Source: Chloroflexus aurantiacus J-10-fl
Lineage (GTDB): Bacteria > Chloroflexota > Chloroflexia > Chloroflexales > Chloroflexaceae
DNA length: 64,000 nt
Assembly: GCF_000018865.1 (NCBI RefSeq)
Contig: NC_010175.1
Location: 4,774,001 to 4,838,000, forward strand
Direction: 5' to 3'
The position numbers were made by a program, and so were the translations under genes. Below, one piece after another: positions 27,110 to 35,392 of this stretch (position 1 is the first letter of the stretch; each line of letters opens with the position of its first letter). The notes below the pieces were generated by a model, which had not been told where the DNA came from, ran no database searches, and saw only the letters and a program-made list of their open reading frames with translations.

Positions 27110-27560
27110 TCCCAGCCTGCCGGTATGGCAGCGCAGAGTATGACCATCACGCACTGGATTGGGTGCCTTACCCACTCATCATGCGCGTGGCGCGGCGTTT
27201 GGCGTGCGGCAGCCATGCTGCCGCGCCAGCCGTACACACGATCCGGTGCGTGGCACACCGTTGACCCAAGCACGGAGTCGGTCAGTATTGAGTCTGGTTG
27301 CCTTGATCGCTTGTTATGCGCGTGGCGCGGCGTTTGGCGTGCGGCAGCCATGCTCACGATCCAGCGCGTAGCCCACCGTTGACACAAGCATAGACTCGGT
27401 TAGTATTGAATCTGGTTGCCTTGATCGCTTGTTATGCGCGTGGCGCGGCGTTTGGCGTGCGGCAGCCATACTGCCGCGCCAGCCGTGCTCAAGATTCGGC
27501 GTTTGTCAGGCCGTTGACCCTGTTGGTTTGAGGGATGCCGTGTTTGCCTGTCACGATCAT
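27110..27560. repeat. Three tandem-like copies of the dispersed palindromic repeat
   Basis: Copies centred near 27210, 27340 and 27465. Each contains GCGCGTGGCGCGGCGTTTGG and a CGGCAGCCAT core; the first and third complete a hairpin with GCTGCCGCG. Copies two and three share a long identical lead-in (ttgccttgatcgcttgttatgc). Together with 27048-27109 this fills the gap between the sigma gene and the next gene; ORFs across it are repeat translations. Confidence 0.8.
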
Positions 27561-27620
27561 GGGGTCGGTCAGTAATGGCGGGTTTCCAGCCCGCGCGCAG
27601 CCATCCCCGCCACCGCCGGA

Positions 27621-28961
27621 TTACTTCCGTGCCAGATTAGCCGCCACCAGGATCGGATCCCAAACCGGCGCAAATGGCGGCGCATAGCTCAGATCAAGCT
27701 CAGCCAGATCATCAATCGTCCAGCCGGCTTGCAGCGCAGCCGCAATCGTGTCAATCCGCTTCGCCACACCTTCGCGACCAACCATCTGACCGCCTAGCAA
27801 ACGGCGTGTATTCCGATCAAATACCAGCGAAACGGTAATCGGCTGATGGCCCGGCATATAGTGTGCCCGTGAGCCAGCTGTGGCCTGCACCGCCTCGGCG
27901 GCAAACCCCTCGGCCTGCGCCCGTGCCAGTGACAGCCCGCTCATTGCGGCCTCTAGCGCAAAGACCTTGACCGCTACCGTACCGACAATACCACCAAACC
28001 GGGCATCGCCACCCGCCAGATTCTCACCGGCCACACGCCCCTGCTTGTTGGCCGTAGTACCGAGCGGCATCCATACCGGTTTCTGAATCACCCGATGCCA
28101 CGCTTCAGCCACATCACCCGCTGCCCACACCTGCGGAAGGTTGGTCCGCTGATGATCATCGACGGCAATCGCTCCGGTCGGCCCCAACCCGATCCCGGCA
28201 GCCTGGGCAAGCGCAACACCTGGTTTGACCCCAACGGCGAGAATCACAATCTCTGCCGGGATAGTCTGCCCTTCAGCGATAACCGCACGTACCCGTTCAT
28301 CGCCGACAAGCCCCTGCACCGTCTGGTTCAAACGCAGATCCACCCCCTGTCGGATCAGCTCTGCCTCGATCTGGCTCGCCAGATCGGCATCCATAGCCGG
28401 TAGCACCTGGGGCAACCGTTCGATCAGGGTGAGCGATATGCCATGCGCGGCCAGCGCTTCAGCCATCTCTAACCCGATATACCCACCCCCGATAATCACG
28501 CCGCTACGCGGTCGTTGTTCGTTCAACCATTCCTTGATCGCCAGCGCATCCTCAACCTGACGCAGCGCAAAGACACCCGCCAGATCAATCCCCGGTAAAG
28601 GCGGACGACCAGGTTGCCCACCTGTCGTCACCACCAGGTCGTCCCAATGGTCAACAAACTCGCGTTCGCTGCGCAAATCCCGCACACGCACCGTCTGCCG
28701 GTCTGGATCAATCTCCAGCACTTCGTGTCGCACCAGGGCTTGAATGCCTTGCCTGGCGAATTGCTCTGGCGTGCGCACGATCAGGTCTTCAACCCGCGCA
28801 ATCTCGCCCTTAATGGCATACGGAAAGCCACAGGCACCGTAGCTCACAAATCCCGACCGCTCATACACCACAATTTCAAGCGTTGGATCGGTGCGGCGGG
28901 CTTTGGCCGCTGCACTCATGCCTGCCGCCCCACCACCGATCACGACCACCCGTCGCCCCAT
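27621..28961 (-). CDS. cdr: CoA-disulfide reductase-like FAD/NAD(P)H oxidoreductase
   Basis: 446 residues. FAD-binding GGGAAGM near the N-terminus, NAD(P)H site GGGYIGLEMAEALAAHG near residue 160, and a single active-site cysteine C44 in SYGACGFPY, the pattern of CoA-disulfide reductase and NADH oxidase-type enzymes (S-x-x-x-C-x-x-P-Y). The C-terminal dimerisation domain is complete. By family it keeps CoA or another low-molecular thiol reduced, or acts on polysulfide. It is the last gene of a minus-strand run behind an arsR-type regulator, so it probably supplies thiol reducing power during metalloid stress. Confidence 0.88.
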   Translation of the reverse strand: MGRRVVVIGGGAAGMSAAAKARRTDPTLEIVVYERSGFVSYGACGFPYAIKGEIARVEDLIVRTPEQFARQGIQALVRHEVLEIDPDRQTVRVRDLRSEREFVDHWDDLVVTTGGQPGRPPLPGIDLAGVFALRQVEDALAIKEWLNEQRPRSGVIIGGGYIGLEMAEALAAHGISLTLIERLPQVLPAMDADLASQIEAELIRQGVDLRLNQTVQGLVGDERVRAVIAEGQTIPAEIVILAVGVKPGVALAQAAGIGLGPTGAIAVDDHQRTNLPQVWAAGDVAEAWHRVIQKPVWMPLGTTANKQGRVAGENLAGGDARFGGIVGTVAVKVFALEAAMSGLSLARAQAEGFAAEAVQATAGSRAHYMPGHQPITVSLVFDRNTRRLLGGQMVGREGVAKRIDTIAAALQAGWTIDDLAELDLSYAPPFAPVWDPILVAANLARK

Positions 28962-29023
28962 TCAAATCCTCCGGGTTGCTGAACAGAAAACACCTTTGAC
29001 TATAAAGATGCACTTGTCACCGC

Positions 29024-30247
29024 TCAGGTTACGTTTCCGCTCCCCACCAGCGCCAGCACCCCCAGCCCCAGCAACCCGATCAGACACCACGCCATCCCAT
29101 CATACCCGATCCATCCCACCAGCACCCCTGCACCCACCGGCGCCACCGTGCGGGCCACGGTCAGCAGCGCATTTTGCAGCCCGCTGATCACACCGTAGTT
29201 TGCCACCCCGTACTGTTCGGCAATCAGCGCTGCCCGCATGATCGTTTGGGTACCGGCCCCCGCTCCAAACAGCGCCACATAGACCAGCACAGCGATAGGG
29301 TGGGTTGAGAGCGTCAGAATCGCCAGGCCAATCATCTGCAACCCAAACAGACCGCCGGTCACCAGCCAGCGCGGCCAGCGTTCGCCGAGAGGGCCGATCA
29401 ACAGCCGACCGAGGAGCGACATCAAACCGTGCAGGCCGGCCATTGCCGAGGCGAAGGTAAGCTGTTCACCGCGACTGATCAGGTACGGAATGAGATGAAC
29501 GGTCATAGCGACCGTCGCAAAGCTGCTGATCGCAAACGCAAGGCTGATCAGCCAGAAGCGCGACCTGGCAACCACCGCTCGCCATTGTAATGAAGGTTCA
29601 GGTGGATGATTGAGATGGGGGTTTTGAGATACACCATCAGGTTCCAGCCCAAGATCCGCCGGACGGCGGCGCAGTATCAGCGCGTGCGGTGGTATTGTCA
29701 GAGAGAGTATCAGCGCCAGGACGATCAGGGCCGAACGCCAGCCCAGCCAATCGACCAGCCAGCCGGAAAGCGGGATGAAGACGAAACTGGCCCACGCCCC
29801 GAAAAAGGTCAAAATCTGCAAGGCCCGACCCCGTTCGCGGCGAAACCAGGTTGCGACAATCGCAAAGGCCGGCTCGTAGAGCACAGCAGCACTCGCCAAA
29901 CCAATCCCAGCCATCACCAGGTAGAGCTGCCCTGGCGTCGTGATTTGTGACCACACGACCAGCAGACCACATCCCAGACTTGAACCAGCCGTCATCAACC
30001 ACCGACTACCGGCCCGGTCGAGCCACCAGCCCACCAGTGGCGCTGCCAGACCATTGGTCAGCAGCGCCACCGCATAACCGGTAGCGACGACCAGTTGATC
30101 AACCGCTAAATCACGGCTCATCGGCAAGATAAAGACGCTGTAGGCATAGTACAAAATGCCCCACGAAATAACCTCCGTGATCGAAACGGTCAAGAGCATG
30201 ATCCAGCCGTAGTAGATACGACCGGAGTGTAAACGTTTTAACAGCAT
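29024..30247 (-). CDS. MFS transporter, oxalate/formate-antiporter-like family
   Basis: 407 residues, twelve predicted helices. The N-terminus (YYGWIMLLTVSITEVISWGILYYAYSVFILPM) and GWWLDRAGSRW loop are typical of the MFS_1 group often called monocarboxylate or oxalate/formate antiporters. It overlaps the upstream flavoprotein gene by ten bases (30238-30247), so both are translated together. Given the ArsR-type regulator at the head of the run, export of a metalloid or organic product of the flavoprotein is a reasonable inference, not shown by the sequence. Confidence 0.85.
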   Translation of the reverse strand: MLLKRLHSGRIYYGWIMLLTVSITEVISWGILYYAYSVFILPMSRDLAVDQLVVATGYAVALLTNGLAAPLVGWWLDRAGSRWLMTAGSSLGCGLLVVWSQITTPGQLYLVMAGIGLASAAVLYEPAFAIVATWFRRERGRALQILTFFGAWASFVFIPLSGWLVDWLGWRSALIVLALILSLTIPPHALILRRRPADLGLEPDGVSQNPHLNHPPEPSLQWRAVVARSRFWLISLAFAISSFATVAMTVHLIPYLISRGEQLTFASAMAGLHGLMSLLGRLLIGPLGERWPRWLVTGGLFGLQMIGLAILTLSTHPIAVLVYVALFGAGAGTQTIMRAALIAEQYGVANYGVISGLQNALLTVARTVAPVGAGVLVGWIGYDGMAWCLIGLLGLGVLALVGSGNVT

Positions 30248-31566
30248 GAGCGTGATGTTGGCTGCAATTCAATCGTGGCGGAAAACGTATTTGGCACTGG
30301 CGAACAGCACACACTGCCATCAGCATCTGGCCCGCTACAAACCCCTGTTTCCGGTAACGTCAACTCAAGTCGCTGCGCAGCTTGCCAATCACCACACAGC
30401 GCCGCAGTCACCGAACGCACCTGTTCGTAGCCGGTCAGCAGCAAGAAGGTTGGCGCCCGCCCGTAGCTCTTCATCCCGACCACGAAAAAGTCCGGTTCTG
30501 GATGCTGTAATTCTGTCACCCCGTGCGGTGGTACCGTCCCACAACTGTGCAGGTTGGGATCGATCAATGGGGCCAGCGCGACCGGAGCCTCAACAATCGG
30601 ATCGAGCGCCAGCCGCAATTCACGCACTGGTGCCAGGTCGGGTCGAAACCCGGTACAAACCACAATCTCATCGACTGGCGGCAGAGTACGTTCGCCATCA
30701 CGCACAATCAACCCATCGGCAGTACGCTGAACCTGATCGGTGTGCCAGCCCGTGACCAGACTCACCCGCCCCGAATCGACCAGTGCCCGTACCTGCTGGC
30801 CCAGTCGCCCCCGTTCCGCCAGCGCATCGGCCTCACCACCACCAAAAATCCGTTCGAGCGTAGTCGCATCACGCCGCACCACCCAGGTCACCTGGGTATC
30901 TGGGGCGGTCTTCCCGAGCCTGACCAGATCGAGCAGGGTATTGAACGCCGAATGCCCACTCCCGGCTACCAGCACTCGCCGGTTTGCGTAGCGCGCCCGA
31001 TCCCGACCAAGCACATCGGGAATACCGTAAAAGATATTGTCGGCGGCGTCGCGTTCACCAGGCGCCGGTACCCCGGCTGCACCTAATGGATTGGGCGAGA
31101 GATAGGTACCCGAAGCATCGATCACGGCCCGTGCCAGCAACAACGACTCTTGCCCGTTATCGTCAACGATTGTCAACTGAAAGGGCACACGCTGGCGATC
31201 ACGACCGCGCTGCCGGTCATGGCCACGACGGGCAACAGCCACGACCCGCCGGCGATAGCGAATATGCGGTGCAATCGCCGGCAGATCAGCCAGCGGCATC
31301 AGATAGTGCGCAACCAGTTCGGAACCGGTCGGAAATGTATCAGCCGACGGCATCTGCCAGCCGGCAGCAGAGAGCAGACGATTGGCTGCGGCGTCGACGC
31401 AATAGCGCCATGGCGTAAACATCTGCACGTGCCCCCAGCGTGAGACAGAAGCACCAGCCTGGTCACCGGCTTCCAGAACGATAAACGATGCACCACGTTC
31501 AGCGAGATGGGCAGCCGCAGCCAGACCAACCGGACCGGCACCGATAATCGCGATTGGGAGAGTCAT
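30238..31566 (-). CDS. Flavoprotein monooxygenase-like protein with cysteine-rich C-terminus (ArsO-like)
   Basis: 442 residues. FAD site IIGAGPVGLAAAAHLAERG at the N-terminus and an NAD(P)H site VLVAGSGHSAFNTLLDLV near residue 200 place it among flavin monooxygenase/thioredoxin-reductase-like proteins. The last 35 residues are unusual: C410, C420-C421 and C441-C442, the last pair being the final two residues. The CCSP motif there resembles CCAP in the neighbouring regulator. It follows an ArsR-type repressor with an operator-like site over its own promoter. It may oxidise or process arsenic compounds or thiols (ArsO-like), which is inferred only. Confidence 0.8.
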   Translation of the reverse strand: MTLPIAIIGAGPVGLAAAAHLAERGASFIVLEAGDQAGASVSRWGHVQMFTPWRYCVDAAANRLLSAAGWQMPSADTFPTGSELVAHYLMPLADLPAIAPHIRYRRRVVAVARRGHDRQRGRDRQRVPFQLTIVDDNGQESLLLARAVIDASGTYLSPNPLGAAGVPAPGERDAADNIFYGIPDVLGRDRARYANRRVLVAGSGHSAFNTLLDLVRLGKTAPDTQVTWVVRRDATTLERIFGGGEADALAERGRLGQQVRALVDSGRVSLVTGWHTDQVQRTADGLIVRDGERTLPPVDEIVVCTGFRPDLAPVRELRLALDPIVEAPVALAPLIDPNLHSCGTVPPHGVTELQHPEPDFFVVGMKSYGRAPTFLLLTGYEQVRSVTAALCGDWQAAQRLELTLPETGVCSGPDADGSVCCSPVPNTFSATIELQPTSRSCC

Positions 31567-31586
31567 GACGTGTCTTCCTTTCAGCT

Positions 31587-31592
31587 ATTATA
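31587..31592 (-). promoter_or_regulatory. -10 element of the flavoprotein-MFS-reductase operon
   Basis: TATAAT on the minus strand, about 20 bases before the start codon at 31566. It overlaps the inverted repeat at 31589-31610. Confidence 0.55.
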
Positions 31593-31610
31593 TCGAAGAT
31601 CATCGATATA
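31589..31610. promoter_or_regulatory. ArsR-type operator 2
   Basis: TATATCGA-N6-TCGATATA, a perfect 8-bp inverted repeat. Same geometry as the site over the arsR promoter (TATATTGA-N6-TCAATATA); the half-sites differ at one base. It covers the flavoprotein operon -10. Confidence 0.7.
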
Positions 31611-31618
31611 CAAACCAC

Positions 31619-31676
31619 AAAAAAACGCCTCTCCATCACCCCATCCAGATCAAGCCTTATCCGGCGTAAGAGAGGC
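31619..31676 (-). terminator. Possible terminator overlapping the arsR stop
   Basis: On the minus strand GCCTCTC (31676-31670 side) pairs with GAGAGGC (31633-31627), followed by seven T residues. The loop is long (36 bases), so strength is uncertain. Confidence 0.4.
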
Positions 31677-32033
31677 AAAAAACTGATCGATCAACAACCG
31701 CACTGTTGCCAGTGCATCCTGGCGAATCGCGTAATAAATCCACTGCCCGCGCCGCTCGCCCTCGATCAGACCACCATCGCGCAGCAATCGCAGGTGGTGC
31801 GAAACGGTTGGCTGCTTGACAGGAAGGGCCGCTTCAAGATCACAAACGCAGACGTGACCGGCATTGCGGGCCAGAATGGCCAGCAAGCGCAGACGGATCG
31901 GATGCGCAAGCAACGACAATGCATCGGCAAGCTGCGCAGCCTCAGCATCGCTGAGCGTGACCGTGATCGCCGGTGCACAGCAAGACATCACCTGCACGGC
32001 TGGTGTTTCCTGATCTGTAGGCTGTGCATTCAT
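31650..32033 (-). CDS. arsR: ArsR/SmtB-family metalloid-responsive repressor
   Basis: 127 residues. Winged-helix repressor with VCVCDLEAAL (C62-V-C64), the As(III)/Sb(III)-binding CVC motif of arsenic-sensing ArsR proteins, directly before the recognition helix KQPTVSHHLRLLRDGGL. A further pair C18-C19 (SCCAP) lies in the N-terminal tail. GGAGGTAGT precedes the ATG at 32033. The promoter and a perfect inverted repeat overlap just upstream, so it should repress itself; a matching site controls the next three genes. By family, binding of trivalent arsenic or antimony releases the repressor. A longer start at 32171 would place the promoter inside the gene and is rejected. Confidence 0.92.
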   Translation of the reverse strand: MNAQPTDQETPAVQVMSCCAPAITVTLSDAEAAQLADALSLLAHPIRLRLLAILARNAGHVCVCDLEAALPVKQPTVSHHLRLLRDGGLIEGERRGQWIYYAIRQDALATVRLLIDQFFASLTPDKA

Positions 32034-32062
32034 ACTACCTCCCCGAAATCTTCGACACAGGT

Positions 32063-32090
32063 AGTATAGCAGTATATTGAAGATTGTCAA
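32063..32090 (-). promoter_or_regulatory. arsR promoter
   Basis: Minus strand TTGACA (32090-32085), 16-base spacer, TATACT (32068-32063): close to consensus. The operator covers the -35 and spacer. Confidence 0.85.
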
Positions 32091-32096
32091 TATACT
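32071..32096. promoter_or_regulatory. ArsR-type operator 1
   Basis: AGTATATTGA-N6-TCAATATACT, a perfect 10-bp inverted repeat over the arsR promoter. Such AT-rich dyads are typical of ArsR/SmtB binding sites. Confidence 0.85.
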
Positions 32097-32184
32097 GTGC
32101 GTGGTGATATTAGCGTAAAGCCTGCGTGCCAGAACTTCAGCTACTCTTAATATTTCCTTAACCAACGACATAGCGTCAGAACGC

Positions 32185-32247: not shown

Positions 32248-33336
32248 ATGCGATTATTGCGTATCATCTACTTCAGTTTGATCACGCTCCTGCTTGTTGC
32301 CTGCGGTACAGGTTTATCACCTACCGCACAGCCAGAAGCTACCCCTTCTCCAACCTCCGAAGCGCCGCTGCTCTCGCCCACAGCGGCGCTTCGCTTGCCG
32401 GATACCGATCTCGCCCGGCTTGCCGGCGAAATCAAGATCGACGGATCGAGTACCGTCTTTCCAATCACTGAACGGGTAGCAGTTGCATTCGGCGACCTGG
32501 CTCCTGATGTTACAATCCGCCTGGGAGTGAGCGGTACAGGGGGTGGATTTACCCGCTTTTGCGCCGGTGAGACCGACATCTCGAACGCTTCGCGGCCCAT
32601 CAAGCAGAAAGAAATCGACGCCTGCGCGGCGTCTGGTATCACCTTTATCGAATTACCGGTCGCGTTCGATGGCCTGTCGGTGGTTGTGCATCCGCAAAAC
32701 ACCTGGGTCGACTGTCTGACCGTCGCTGAGCTGAATCTGATGTGGGCGCCAGAGGCAACCAACCGGATCACGCGCTGGAATCAGATTCGCGCCGAATGGC
32801 CCGCTGAGCCTTTGCATCTCTACGGTGCCGGTGTTGACTCCGGAACCTATGACTACTTCACCTCGGCAATTGTTGGCGCAGAGGGAGTGAGTAGAAGCGA
32901 CTATACTGCCAGCGAAGACGATTATCTCCTGGCCCAGGATGTTGCCGCCGACCGGCTGGGTTTGGGCTTTTTTGGCTATGCCTATTACGCTGAATATGCC
33001 GATCAATTACGTGCGGTCGCCATCGATAATGGTCAGGGCTGTGTTGCGCCAACAGTTAAAACAATTGTTGATGGAAGCTATCAACCGCTCTCGCGCCCAA
33101 TCTTTATCTATGTGCGCGCCGACAGTCTAAATCGACCAGAGATTGCAGCATTTGTCAGATTCTACGTACAAAATGGTGCCATGTTTGCTGAGCAAGCCCT
33201 GTACGTTCCCCTACCGGAAACTGTCTATCAGCTTGCCTTACAGCGGGTGGAGCGACGGATCACCGGTTCCGTCTTTTCCGGCGGGTCGCAGGTCGGTCTA
33301 TCAATCGAGCAACTGTTGCAACTAGAGGATCGCTAG
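32248..33336 (+). CDS. PstS-like phosphate-binding lipoprotein
   Basis: 362 residues. Lipoprotein signal with lipobox LVAC (C19), then a Pro/Ser/Thr-rich linker. The PstS-type fold follows: IKIDGSSTVFPITE for the first oxyanion-binding loop, GVSGTGGGFTRFCAGETDISNASRPIK for the second, and GVDSGTYDYF for the third. By family it binds phosphate outside the membrane. No pstC, pstA or pstB is nearby; the histidine kinase gene starts two bases after its stop. This points to a sensing rather than a transport role. The ligand could be another oxyanion. Confidence 0.88.
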   Translation: MRLLRIIYFSLITLLLVACGTGLSPTAQPEATPSPTSEAPLLSPTAALRLPDTDLARLAGEIKIDGSSTVFPITERVAVAFGDLAPDVTIRLGVSGTGGGFTRFCAGETDISNASRPIKQKEIDACAASGITFIELPVAFDGLSVVVHPQNTWVDCLTVAELNLMWAPEATNRITRWNQIRAEWPAEPLHLYGAGVDSGTYDYFTSAIVGAEGVSRSDYTASEDDYLLAQDVAADRLGLGFFGYAYYAEYADQLRAVAIDNGQGCVAPTVKTIVDGSYQPLSRPIFIYVRADSLNRPEIAAFVRFYVQNGAMFAEQALYVPLPETVYQLALQRVERRITGSVFSGGSQVGLSIEQLLQLEDR

Positions 33337-33338
33337 CG

Positions 33339-35003
33339 ATGCGCTTTCCGATTCGCGTAAAGTTGTTGGGAGCACTGGCCATCGACCTCCTGTTGATGAT
33401 GATCCTTGGCGTCTTTGCCATGCATCAGATGGCCGTCATGAATGAACGTGCCGTCTTCATTGAACGTCACACAATCCCATCGCTCGACACGGTTGGCGAT
33501 ATGACAGCAGCGATCAATCGCTATCGTGCTCGCCAGCTCGAATTTCTGATTTATACCAACAACGGCGACCGTGCCCGCATCCTTGATCAGATGCGTGTGA
33601 TTGAAACCGAAATGGCCGGCTACGTGCAGGCGTACCGTGCCCTAGTTGACTCCGAGAGCGAACGTCGTCAATTAAATGCTGTTGAAGCAGCCTGGCACGA
33701 GGTGGTGCGCGCCAATCACGAACGCTTCATTCCGGCTGTACGCCTGGTGAGCGATGGCAGTGTGCAGCCTTTCTATTCACGCATGAACCCCGTTTACGCC
33801 ACGCTTGATCGGGAAATGAACCTTCTGGTGCAAGAGAATCAGCAACAGGCACGGGCATCACTCGATGTTGTCGCCAGCAGTTATGCGACTGCGCGTACCT
33901 TCATCTTGTTCGATACAGCGGTTGCGATTATCATCTCGGCGGCGATTGGCTTGTTCCTGTCTGCCCGCATTGCACGTCGGTTGCGACGACTGGCCCATGC
34001 TTCTAATCGCGTAGCCGCCGGTGACTTTGTCGGTTCCATCAATGAGCGGACTCGTGATGAGATTGGCGATCTGGCCCGCGCATTCGATCAGATGTTGAGC
34101 AGCCTGCGGGCACAACGTGCCGAACTGGAAGAACGCAACCGCGCACTGCAAGAGAGTCTCTCGCGTCAGGCGCAGTTGATGGAAGAGATTGTGCGTGGCA
34201 AACAGGCCGAAGCTGAAGCAGAACGGGCGCGCGCTGCCGCAGAGGCCGCCAGTCAGGCCAAGAGCGCCTTTTTGGCGACAATGAGCCATGAACTACGTAC
34301 TCCGCTCAATGCCATTCTCGGATACGCGCAGTTGCTGCATCTGAGTAATGCCGTGAGTGAACCGCACGCTGACTATCTGGAGCGCATTCTCTCGTCTGGC
34401 CGTCATTTACTCACCTTGATCAGCGACGTACTCGATTTTGCCCGTATTGAACAGGGAGCACTCGAACTGGAGTACCGCCAGGTTGCAATCGCACCACTGG
34501 TCGAAGATGTGGCAACAATGACGCTGCCCCTGGCGCAACGCAACCACAATCAGGTGATCACCTGTTACCCGGCGGACATTGGCTCTATCGAGACCGATGA
34601 CCGCCGCTTGCGTCAGGTTTTGATCAATCTCCTCGGTAATGCAGCTAAGTTTACCGAACGGGGAACAATTCGGCTTAATGTTGTGCGAGAGCAGCGCCAC
34701 GGGATCGACGGCATTCGCTTCGACGTTATCGATACGGGGATTGGCATCCCCCGTGATAAGCAGGACAAACTCTTCAAACCGTTTAGCCAGATCGACGAGT
34801 CGGTCACCCGCCGTTATGAAGGCACCGGTCTCGGTCTGGCGCTCAGTAAGCAGATCGTGCTGGCCCTTGGTGGCACAATTGACGTAGAGAGCGACTTTGG
34901 TGTTGGCTCAACCTTCACCGTTTGGCTGCCCACTGCACCTCTTGCTGCGGCAGACTCCACATCGTTACCATCGCAACCACACCTGATAGGAGAACCCGCA
35001 TGA
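33339..35003 (+). CDS. Membrane sensor histidine kinase (4HB-HAMP-HisKA-HATPase)
   Basis: 554 residues. Helix 1 at about 8-28, an extracytoplasmic four-helix-bundle-like sensor (30-185), helix 2 at about 187-208, HAMP (210-262), a coiled coil with Ala/Glu repeats (262-308), HisKA with the phospho-acceptor H317 in FLATMSHELRTPLN, and HATPase_c with DTGIGIPRDKQDKLF and GTGLGLALSKQI. It follows the PstS-like lipoprotein by two bases and overlaps the response regulator by ATGA, so all three form one module. The binding protein probably presents its ligand state to the sensor bundle. That link is inferred from gene order. Confidence 0.92.
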   Translation: MRFPIRVKLLGALAIDLLLMMILGVFAMHQMAVMNERAVFIERHTIPSLDTVGDMTAAINRYRARQLEFLIYTNNGDRARILDQMRVIETEMAGYVQAYRALVDSESERRQLNAVEAAWHEVVRANHERFIPAVRLVSDGSVQPFYSRMNPVYATLDREMNLLVQENQQQARASLDVVASSYATARTFILFDTAVAIIISAAIGLFLSARIARRLRRLAHASNRVAAGDFVGSINERTRDEIGDLARAFDQMLSSLRAQRAELEERNRALQESLSRQAQLMEEIVRGKQAEAEAERARAAAEAASQAKSAFLATMSHELRTPLNAILGYAQLLHLSNAVSEPHADYLERILSSGRHLLTLISDVLDFARIEQGALELEYRQVAIAPLVEDVATMTLPLAQRNHNQVITCYPADIGSIETDDRRLRQVLINLLGNAAKFTERGTIRLNVVREQRHGIDGIRFDVIDTGIGIPRDKQDKLFKPFSQIDESVTRRYEGTGLGLALSKQIVLALGGTIDVESDFGVGSTFTVWLPTAPLAAADSTSLPSQPHLIGEPA

Positions 35004-35392
35004 GCTATATTCTCGTTGTAGACGATAATTTCGATAATCGCCATATTATTGGACAGATGTTGCAATTCAGTGGCTTTACCGTTGAGCTGGTTGCTGATGC
35101 CCATTCTGCACTTCAGATCGCCCGCACGCGGCGTCCAGGTCTTATCTTGATGGATTTATCGATGCCCGGTCTTGATGGCTGGACGGCAACTGAATACGTC
35201 AGGCGTGATCCAGAATTACACTCAATCCCGATTGTCGCCGTGAGTGGTCATGTCACCCGCAACGATATTGAACGGGCAAAGCGCGCGGGATGTGTCGAGT
35301 TTCTAGCCAAACCGATTGACTACGAACATCTGATTGAGGTTGCCCGTCGCTACACCGGGCAGGCATCTCGTTCATCTTCACACACATCATGA
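35000..35392 (+). CDS. Single-domain response regulator (CheY-like receiver)
   Basis: 130 residues, receiver domain only. Acidic pair D8-D9, phospho-acceptor D52 in LILMDLSMPGLDGW, conserved T/S near VAVSGH and lysine in FLAKPIDYEHL. There is no DNA-binding domain, so the output is by protein contact or phosphorelay. I set the start at 35000, with AGGAGA upstream and ATGA overlap with the kinase. The kinase lacks its own receiver, so this is its likely partner. Confidence 0.92.
   Translation: MSYILVVDDNFDNRHIIGQMLQFSGFTVELVADAHSALQIARTRRPGLILMDLSMPGLDGWTATEYVRRDPELHSIPIVAVSGHVTRNDIERAKRAGCVEFLAKPIDYEHLIEVARRYTGQASRSSSHTS

Follow-up and report, generated by a model that had tools for sequence, protein, structure and literature searches.

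The window is a stretch of 64,000 nucleotides of Chloroflexus aurantiacus J-10-fl (contig NC_010175.1, positions 4,774,001 to 4,838,000 of the forward strand). On its minus strand lies a cassette of three genes, in the order arsR, flavoprotein gene, gene of a major facilitator superfamily (MFS) protein. With good, though not full, confidence the three are read as a cassette for metalloid detoxification, repressed by ArsR and of the ArsV/ArsW(ArsK) kind; the next gene, CoA-disulfide-reductase-like and called CDR below, lies outside it. The features of the locus are as follows.

31650-32033, minus strand: arsR, 127 aa; ArsR/SmtB repressor with NF033788 and PF01022 matches; C18-C19 and CVC (C62, C64).
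30238-31566, minus strand: flavoprotein gene, probably ArsV-like, 442 aa; FAD and NAD(P)H Rossmann motifs; core C342; predicted disordered tail with C410, C420-C421 and C441-C442.
29024-30247, minus strand: MFS gene, ArsK-like or ArsW-like, putative exporter, 407 aa; PF07690 match of 151 bits.
32073-32094: candidate arsR operator, perfect dyad TATATTGA-N6-TCAATATA, over the -35 box and spacer; conserved in related loci.
31589-31610: second candidate operator, perfect dyad TATATCGA-N6-TCGATATA, overlapping a putative -10 box of the flavoprotein gene; conserved in related loci.
32063-32090, minus strand: arsR promoter, sigma-70-like, TTGACA-16-TATACT; 11/12 consensus matches.
27621-28961, minus strand: CDR, CoA-disulfide-reductase-like flavoprotein gene, 446 aa; sequence SYGACGFPY; adjacent to the cassette, outside it.

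All genes named in an earlier, sequence-only reading of this DNA are confirmed: arsR with its CVC motif, the flavoprotein gene with its cysteine-rich tail, the MFS gene and the CoA-disulfide-reductase-like gene. The lack of arsenate reductase (arsC), arsB and acr3 genes in the operon is borne out at the locus as well. The MFS gene overlaps the end of the flavoprotein gene by 10 bases. The start of arsR is taken at 32033, because the longer open reading frame (ORF), with a start at 32171, would place the operator inside the gene.

Both dyads, with the sequences claimed for them, are recovered by the dyad scan. The degenerate pattern ATATYGA-N6-TCRATAT matches the two at 0 mismatches in the window and a third site (23365) at 2; 0.37 sites at up to 2 mismatches are expected by chance. 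Throughout the single-contig genome (5,258,541 bases) only the two dyads lie within 2 mismatches of the arsR dyad, and 8 further places are found at 3. Conservation was searched from 900 bases upstream of the flavoprotein ORF to 150 bases inside it. Nineteen of 24 Chloroflexota loci entered this test, among them the locus of the window and four others from its genus; the pattern occurs at ≤1 mismatch upstream of the flavoprotein gene in 14 of the 19 (13/18 without the window's own). Coding controls give 0 and shuffled controls a mean of 0.0, both in this set and in a set of 80 genome loci described below. The four tested relatives of the genus carry the pattern twice at ≤1 mismatch, before arsR and before the flavoprotein gene, as in the window. 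By this footprint-type conservation both dyads look like real operators, at which ArsR would bind. The motif can be used to find such operons in Chloroflexota.

The dyads had been placed over both promoters. This holds for arsR, where the dyad overlaps the -35 box and the spacer of the 11/12 promoter. On the flavoprotein side the dyad overlaps a TATAAT at 31586-31591, seen by eye, and the promoter scan reports no full promoter there. Promoter-like sites in the scanned region number 2, against 0.9 expected.

In a second family of the order, presumed to be Herpetosiphonaceae, five loci (L041, L042, L043, L045, L046) have the flavoprotein and MFS genes and no ArsR match within 16-18 kb. The matching loci L018, L019, L020, L022 and L023 show one or two upstream dyads at ≤1 mismatch. 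The regulator may act there from elsewhere.

ArsR is of the winged-helix helix-turn-helix type (NF033788, 91.4 bits, cut-off 55). Its cysteines, C18, C19, C62 and C64, are placed as in known metalloid sites. The best relative in the PDB is 6j0e, 'Arsenic responsive repressor ArsR', presumably CgArsR; its CC aligns with C18-C19. An N-terminal CC together with CxC is present in 22 of 37 ArsR-like proteins encoded near the flavoprotein gene, as counted by a simple regex on rough ORFs with one duplicated genome included. Outside the window, at 1.83 Mb (G000:C1:1832114-1832782), a 315-aa open frame combines an ArsR-type helix-turn-helix domain (67 bits) with a low-molecular-weight ArsC-like domain (110 bits). 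This pair of ArsR-type and ArsC-like matches is present in 7/8 genomes of the genus. A figure legend in the available part of PMC6514093 mentions an ArsR-ArsC2 fusion.

The flavoprotein is found in 22/301 Chloroflexota genomes (E ≤1e-20) and on 132 of 72,556 plasmid records. In the GTDB genome collection a search with the peptide patterns IDPNxHSCG and [VIA]G[MAL]KSYGRA gave at least 589 confirmed stretches, the best 80 of which make up the set of genome loci. By record title these 80 loci include Chloroflexota, Pseudomonadota, Actinomycetota, Bacillota, Gemmatimonadota and Bacteroidota, some of the phyla being our own presumed assignments. A strict ars gene (arsC, acr3, arsB, arsJ, arsH, arsM or arsN; tblastn within 5 kb) is present in 46/80 loci. 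Without low-molecular-weight arsC the count is 42/80; the representative of that gene misses its curated cut-off (125.8 of 174.3). An ArsR-like gene lies within 5 kb in 63/80 loci and directly adjoins in 46/80; an ArsK-like MFS gene lies within 5 kb in 44/80 and directly downstream of the flavoprotein gene in 38/80; both arrangements, ArsR next door and MFS directly downstream, occur in 29/80. ArsO shares the neighbourhood in 19/80. Twenty control regions of 13 kb give 0 matches for every gene class; they were placed arbitrarily in six Chloroflexota genomes, whereas the 80 loci come mostly from other phyla.

A first neighbour count by longest-ORF calling, in which ArsO and GAPDH also counted as canonical ars genes, had given such a gene in 41/80 loci; the same definition by tblastn gives 53/80. 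The tblastn count replaced it, because long antisense ORFs were judged to have displaced true genes. Reading frames are not trimmed to true starts. Representatives above their NCBIfam cut-offs are ArsO, ArsN1, Acr3, ArsJ, glutaredoxin ArsC, ArsB-type TIGR00935, ArsJ-associated GAPDH, ArsH and ArsM; besides low-molecular-weight ArsC, the MFS representative is below (160.4 of 400).

Ten annotated plasmid neighbourhoods of the 132 records, chosen for diversity and not randomly, agree in part: a named arsenic gene other than arsR is present in 7/10. Plasmids of Ensifer adhaerens E-60 and M8 (L150, L151) have the order arsR - FAD-dependent oxidoreductase - arsK. On plasmids of Shinella, Priestia and Mycolicibacterium, arsR and the genes of flavoprotein and MFS protein lie beside acr3 and arsC; the Neotabrizicola plasmid, from a hot-spring biofilm, has the same three beside arsJ. 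The flavoprotein gene of Pseudomonas nitroreducens lies between arsN1 and arsD. Without a named arsenic gene beyond arsR are the plasmids of Hydrogenophaga (arsR and MFS), Cellulosimicrobium (arsR and pst) and Agreia (arsR, low-molecular-weight phosphatase, aquaporin).

The cysteines of the flavoprotein are C56, C304, C342, C391, C410, C420, C421, C441 and C442. They were compared in 109 homologues (80 genome loci, the window, 18 Chloroflexota and 10 plasmid sequences; 106 distinct, with three genomes in both sets). C342 and C410 are invariant (109/109). Cysteine is present at position 420 in 94 homologues, at 421 in 99, at 441 in 46 and at 442 in 83. C56, C304 and C391 are not conserved. For the 80 loci the invariance of C342 and of the KSYGRAP loop is partly by construction, through the search patterns; C342 also holds in the 29 homologues not found by peptide patterns, and the conservation of C410 and of the tail is free of this bias. 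The positions first noted for the tail, C410, C420-C421 and C441-C442, are correct, and a conserved cysteine-rich tail is supported. A motif CC-[AS]-P, noted as common to ArsR and the flavoprotein, is present in both; only its CC is conserved among the homologues (position 422 is G in 57/109 and A in 18/109, position 423 is mixed), and it is rejected as a shared signature.

An AlphaFold2 model, built on a 42-sequence alignment, has a mean pLDDT of 88.1. Values below 50 are found at residues 367-372, within the invariant KSYGRAP loop, and at 407-437 and 439-442; the cysteine-rich C-terminal tail is predicted to be flexible or disordered. The two-Rossmann FAD/NADPH fold of class B flavin monooxygenases is present by fold match of the model. 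The first Rossmann GxGxxG motif is found by regex in 100/109 homologues and the second in 104/109. Nearest among solved folds are the bacillithiol disulfide reductases (Bdr/YpdA), Z 30.1, 28.6 and 28.3, and bacterial flavin monooxygenases come next, Z 25-26. A profile search of solved structures also returns Bdr first; the best score is 70.1 bits, and no close member is found by sequence.

Gene order, the conservation of operators and cysteines, the linkage of the family to ars genes and the predicted fold come directly from the analysis; in the following working, substrate, redox direction, export and binding by ArsR are what we infer. Without metalloid, ArsR would sit on both dyads and shut off two promoters, that of arsR and that of the flavoprotein-MFS unit. 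Binding of a trivalent arsenical or antimonite to ArsR, through the N-terminal cysteine pair, the CVC or both, would release the DNA. The flavoprotein, reduced by NAD(P)H, would oxidise the trivalent species to the less toxic pentavalent one, with conserved thiols holding the substrate. The likeliest substrate would be methylarsenite or another organoarsenical, Sb(III), or both. The MFS protein would export the product or the substrate.

Several observations weigh against this assignment. No strict ars gene lies within 5 kb in 34/80 loci, and among Chloroflexota flavoprotein loci only 2/20 have one nearby. Seven of the 80 loci have neither ars gene nor ArsR nor MFS, although 4 of the 7 are on 3.1-7.6 kb pieces that cannot show both flanks. 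One or both of CC and CxC are missing in 15/37 ArsR-like neighbours. The operator pattern, at ≤1 mismatch, is found in only 10/80 of the genome-collection loci. Membership of two curated families is rejected: the MFS protein scores 135.3 bits against the ArsK equivalog cut-off of 400 (NF033733), and the flavoprotein 58.8 against the ArsO cut-off of 425 (NF040505). Identity with ArsV/ArsW is drawn from gene order and enzyme class. Finally, the class B monooxygenase motif is absent from all homologues and the nearest solved fold is that of a thiol-disulfide reductase, so oxidation by the flavoprotein is a conditional statement.

The last two points lead to the reading of the flavoprotein as an enzyme of the thiol-disulfide reductase type, similar to bacillithiol disulfide reductase, which would spend NAD(P)H on freeing arsenic-thiol adducts or the thiols of the cell; export of the arsenical would fall to the MFS protein. 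Class B flavin monooxygenases have the signature FxGxxxHxxx[YFW], and it is found in 0/109 homologues; this and the rank of Bdr/YpdA, ahead of flavin monooxygenases in both fold and profile searches, favour a reductase. YpdA, however, has as its signature a cysteine in the first Rossmann motif, GxGPCG, and this too is found in 0/109. CxxC before residue 400 occurs in 1/109, the structural alignment shows only about 20% identity with Bdr, and the gene context fits the published oxidase-exporter pair. A reductase is improbable on balance. Oxidation of inorganic arsenite, with the flavoprotein making arsenate and the MFS protein exporting As(III) or As(V), is possible and rather doubtful. It would suit a genome in which no Acr3 match and no ArsM match over cut-off are found, so that a dedicated arsenite exporter may otherwise be missing; the best NCBIfam match of the MFS protein is, moreover, the arsenite exporter ArsK. 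Against it, the genome already has a strong match to the arsenite oxidase AioA (1025 bits), and methylarsenite could come from neighbouring microbes, so the absence of ArsM says little. An ArsB-type pump may also exist elsewhere in the genome, judging by a weak match to PF02040 at C1:105229 (66 bits, superfamily level). Weak NF008823 matches in the genus were discarded as evidence, 14/14 control genomes matching too. The substrates reported for ArsV are organoarsenicals and Sb(III), according to a title cited in PMC11719878 and the available part of PMC10080717.

The earlier proposal had gone further and joined oxidation, export and CoA-thiol repair in one purpose-built metalloid route of four genes. 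CDR starts 62 bases after the MFS stop on the same strand and may be co-transcribed with the cassette in this genus; it is downstream of the MFS gene in 5/6 cassette-bearing genomes of the genus, although two ORFs intervene in one of these. A CDR-like gene is also found within 5 kb in 4/80 other loci, all Actinomycetota: Microbacterium, Tersicoccus and two Curtobacterium (L093, L102, L108, L123); a fifth match (L063) is only 26% identical. Yet CDR is present in 8/8 genomes of the genus and the flavoprotein in 6/8. In one genome (G052) a gap of 217 bases, free of cassette genes, separates CDR from pstS. In another (G086) the order is CDR, unrelated ORF (REP-type transposase-like by eye), truncated arsR, pstS. 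In a third (G230) the cassette stands beside pstS and CDR is 358 kb away, beside a sigma-factor gene. Because of these arrangements the cassette is held to have been gained or lost at a chromosomal site usually neighboured by CDR. Among Chloroflexota flavoprotein loci a CDR match occurs in 3/20, all of this genus. CDR is chromosomal backbone and outside the module; it is rejected as a committed partner, its part as a thiol-repair arm is not supported, and a four-gene route is highly improbable. The preferred reading remains the cassette of arsR, flavoprotein gene and MFS gene.

Of more tentative standing is a reading of the cysteines themselves. The C-terminal cysteine pair of mercuric reductase hands over Hg(II). 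By analogy, the disordered tail of the flavoprotein, with the invariant C410, the near-invariant C420-C421 and the common terminal Cys or CC, might be a mobile thiol arm which captures the metalloid in its trivalent form and passes it on to an active site with the invariant core C342. The enzyme might then represent a metalloid oxidase chemistry arisen apart from ArsH and AioA and unlike that of a canonical flavin monooxygenase; a separate chemistry is proposed because the monooxygenase signature is missing and the fold is disulfide-reductase-like. Such an arm, if it works as proposed, would explain how enzymes of this kind handle a substrate that poisons thiols. The conserved cysteine set gives the exact residues for mutation. 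The conserved flexible thiol arm, and the expected monooxygenase role set against the missing monooxygenase signature, are interesting and unexplained.

CDR scores below the equivalog cut-offs of its families (TIGR03385, 456.3 of 578.8; NF007123, 443.4 of 458). In the four Actinomycetota loci with a CDR-like gene an ArsR-like match lies near each, and the CDR link is perhaps independent there. L154:1761-3396 (G086) is a decayed copy of the cassette, with truncated arsR and a transposase-like ORF in place of the flavoprotein and MFS genes. Between the sigma-factor gene and CDR, at 27160-27577, lie direct repeats, imperfect, 108-118 bases long and 63-88% identical, as well as a 29-base family. 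Divergent from arsR, at 32248-35392, are a pstS-like gene, a histidine kinase gene and a response-regulator-like ORF, the first two assigned by profile scan and the third by reading of the ORF. The trio is kept in G052, where the cassette is missing. On the Ensifer and Cellulosimicrobium plasmids pst genes also adjoin the flavoprotein gene.

Among named systems the closest in kind is ArsV/ArsW, in which ArsW is a transporter of the MFS class. A FAD/NAD(P)H flavoprotein gene in ars context and an MFS gene paired with it, the marks of that module, are both found here. As far as the accessible part of PMC10080717 goes, ArsV oxidises methylarsenite and ArsW extrudes methylarsenate. Excerpts of PMC11719878 list ArsV among organoarsenical oxidases and arsV among genes induced under Sb(III), and cite a title on ArsV, organoarsenicals and antimonite. 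The system is from Paracoccus sp. SY (Chen 2021, Zhang 2022, by way of the same portions of PMC10080717 and PMC11719878); ArsW is placed among the ars efflux transporters in an excerpt of PMC9144182. The likeness consists in a pair of flavin enzyme and exporter directed against trivalent organoarsenicals, described by a title cited in these excerpts as widely present in soil bacteria. Different are the host, Chloroflexus, the two operators, the lack of any other ars gene in the operon and the absence of the class B motif. None of the NCBIfam matches listed for the window proteins is named ArsV, and the comparison, by gene order and enzyme class and not by sequence, makes an ArsV-like flavoprotein probable. 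No description of this operon in Chloroflexus is among the literature matches listed, and the available parts of PMC7466150 and PMC6514093 do not describe the flavoprotein gene.

Also close is the arrangement on the Ensifer adhaerens plasmids (L150, L151), with the same order arsR - flavoprotein - arsK; flavoprotein identity is 47.5% over 95% of the query for the first and 49.0% over 91% for the second. In L150, however, the MFS protein is 28% identical, and ArsR is of another type (39% identity over 62 residues, no CVC in the aligned stretch). With ArsO the flavoprotein has in common that it is an ars-linked FAD/NAD(P)H protein; its score places it in a separate family. Bdr and YpdA share the overall two-Rossmann fold (Z 30) and differ by the low identity, by the YpdA cysteine motif, found in no homologue, and by the additional cysteine-rich C-terminal tail of the window protein. 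The site of CgArsR is Cys15-16-55 and that of EcArsR Cys32-34-37, in the part of PMC13236881 available. The ArsR of the window resembles CgArsR in its N-terminal vicinal cysteine pair, which aligns with that of 6j0e, and differs from it in also having CVC, which resembles Cys32/Cys34 of EcArsR (same part of PMC13236881).

Of the distinct metalloid route proposed at first, the metalloid part is upheld by an apparently ArsR-controlled flavoprotein/exporter operon, two conserved operators and a conserved cysteine tail. The distinctness is not: the family is widespread beside classical ars genes and the pair fits ArsV/ArsW. Novelty, which was to be given up if the cluster proved to be an already named system, probably falls by the same match in gene order and enzyme class. 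The Chloroflexus operon is hereby tied to a module carried on soil, water and human-associated plasmids, whose annotations mostly call the enzyme just 'NAD(P)-binding protein' or 'FAD-dependent oxidoreductase'. Like ArsV/ArsW, it is probably a conserved and widespread arsenic/antimony module, apparently regulated by ArsR, and not a new kind of system.

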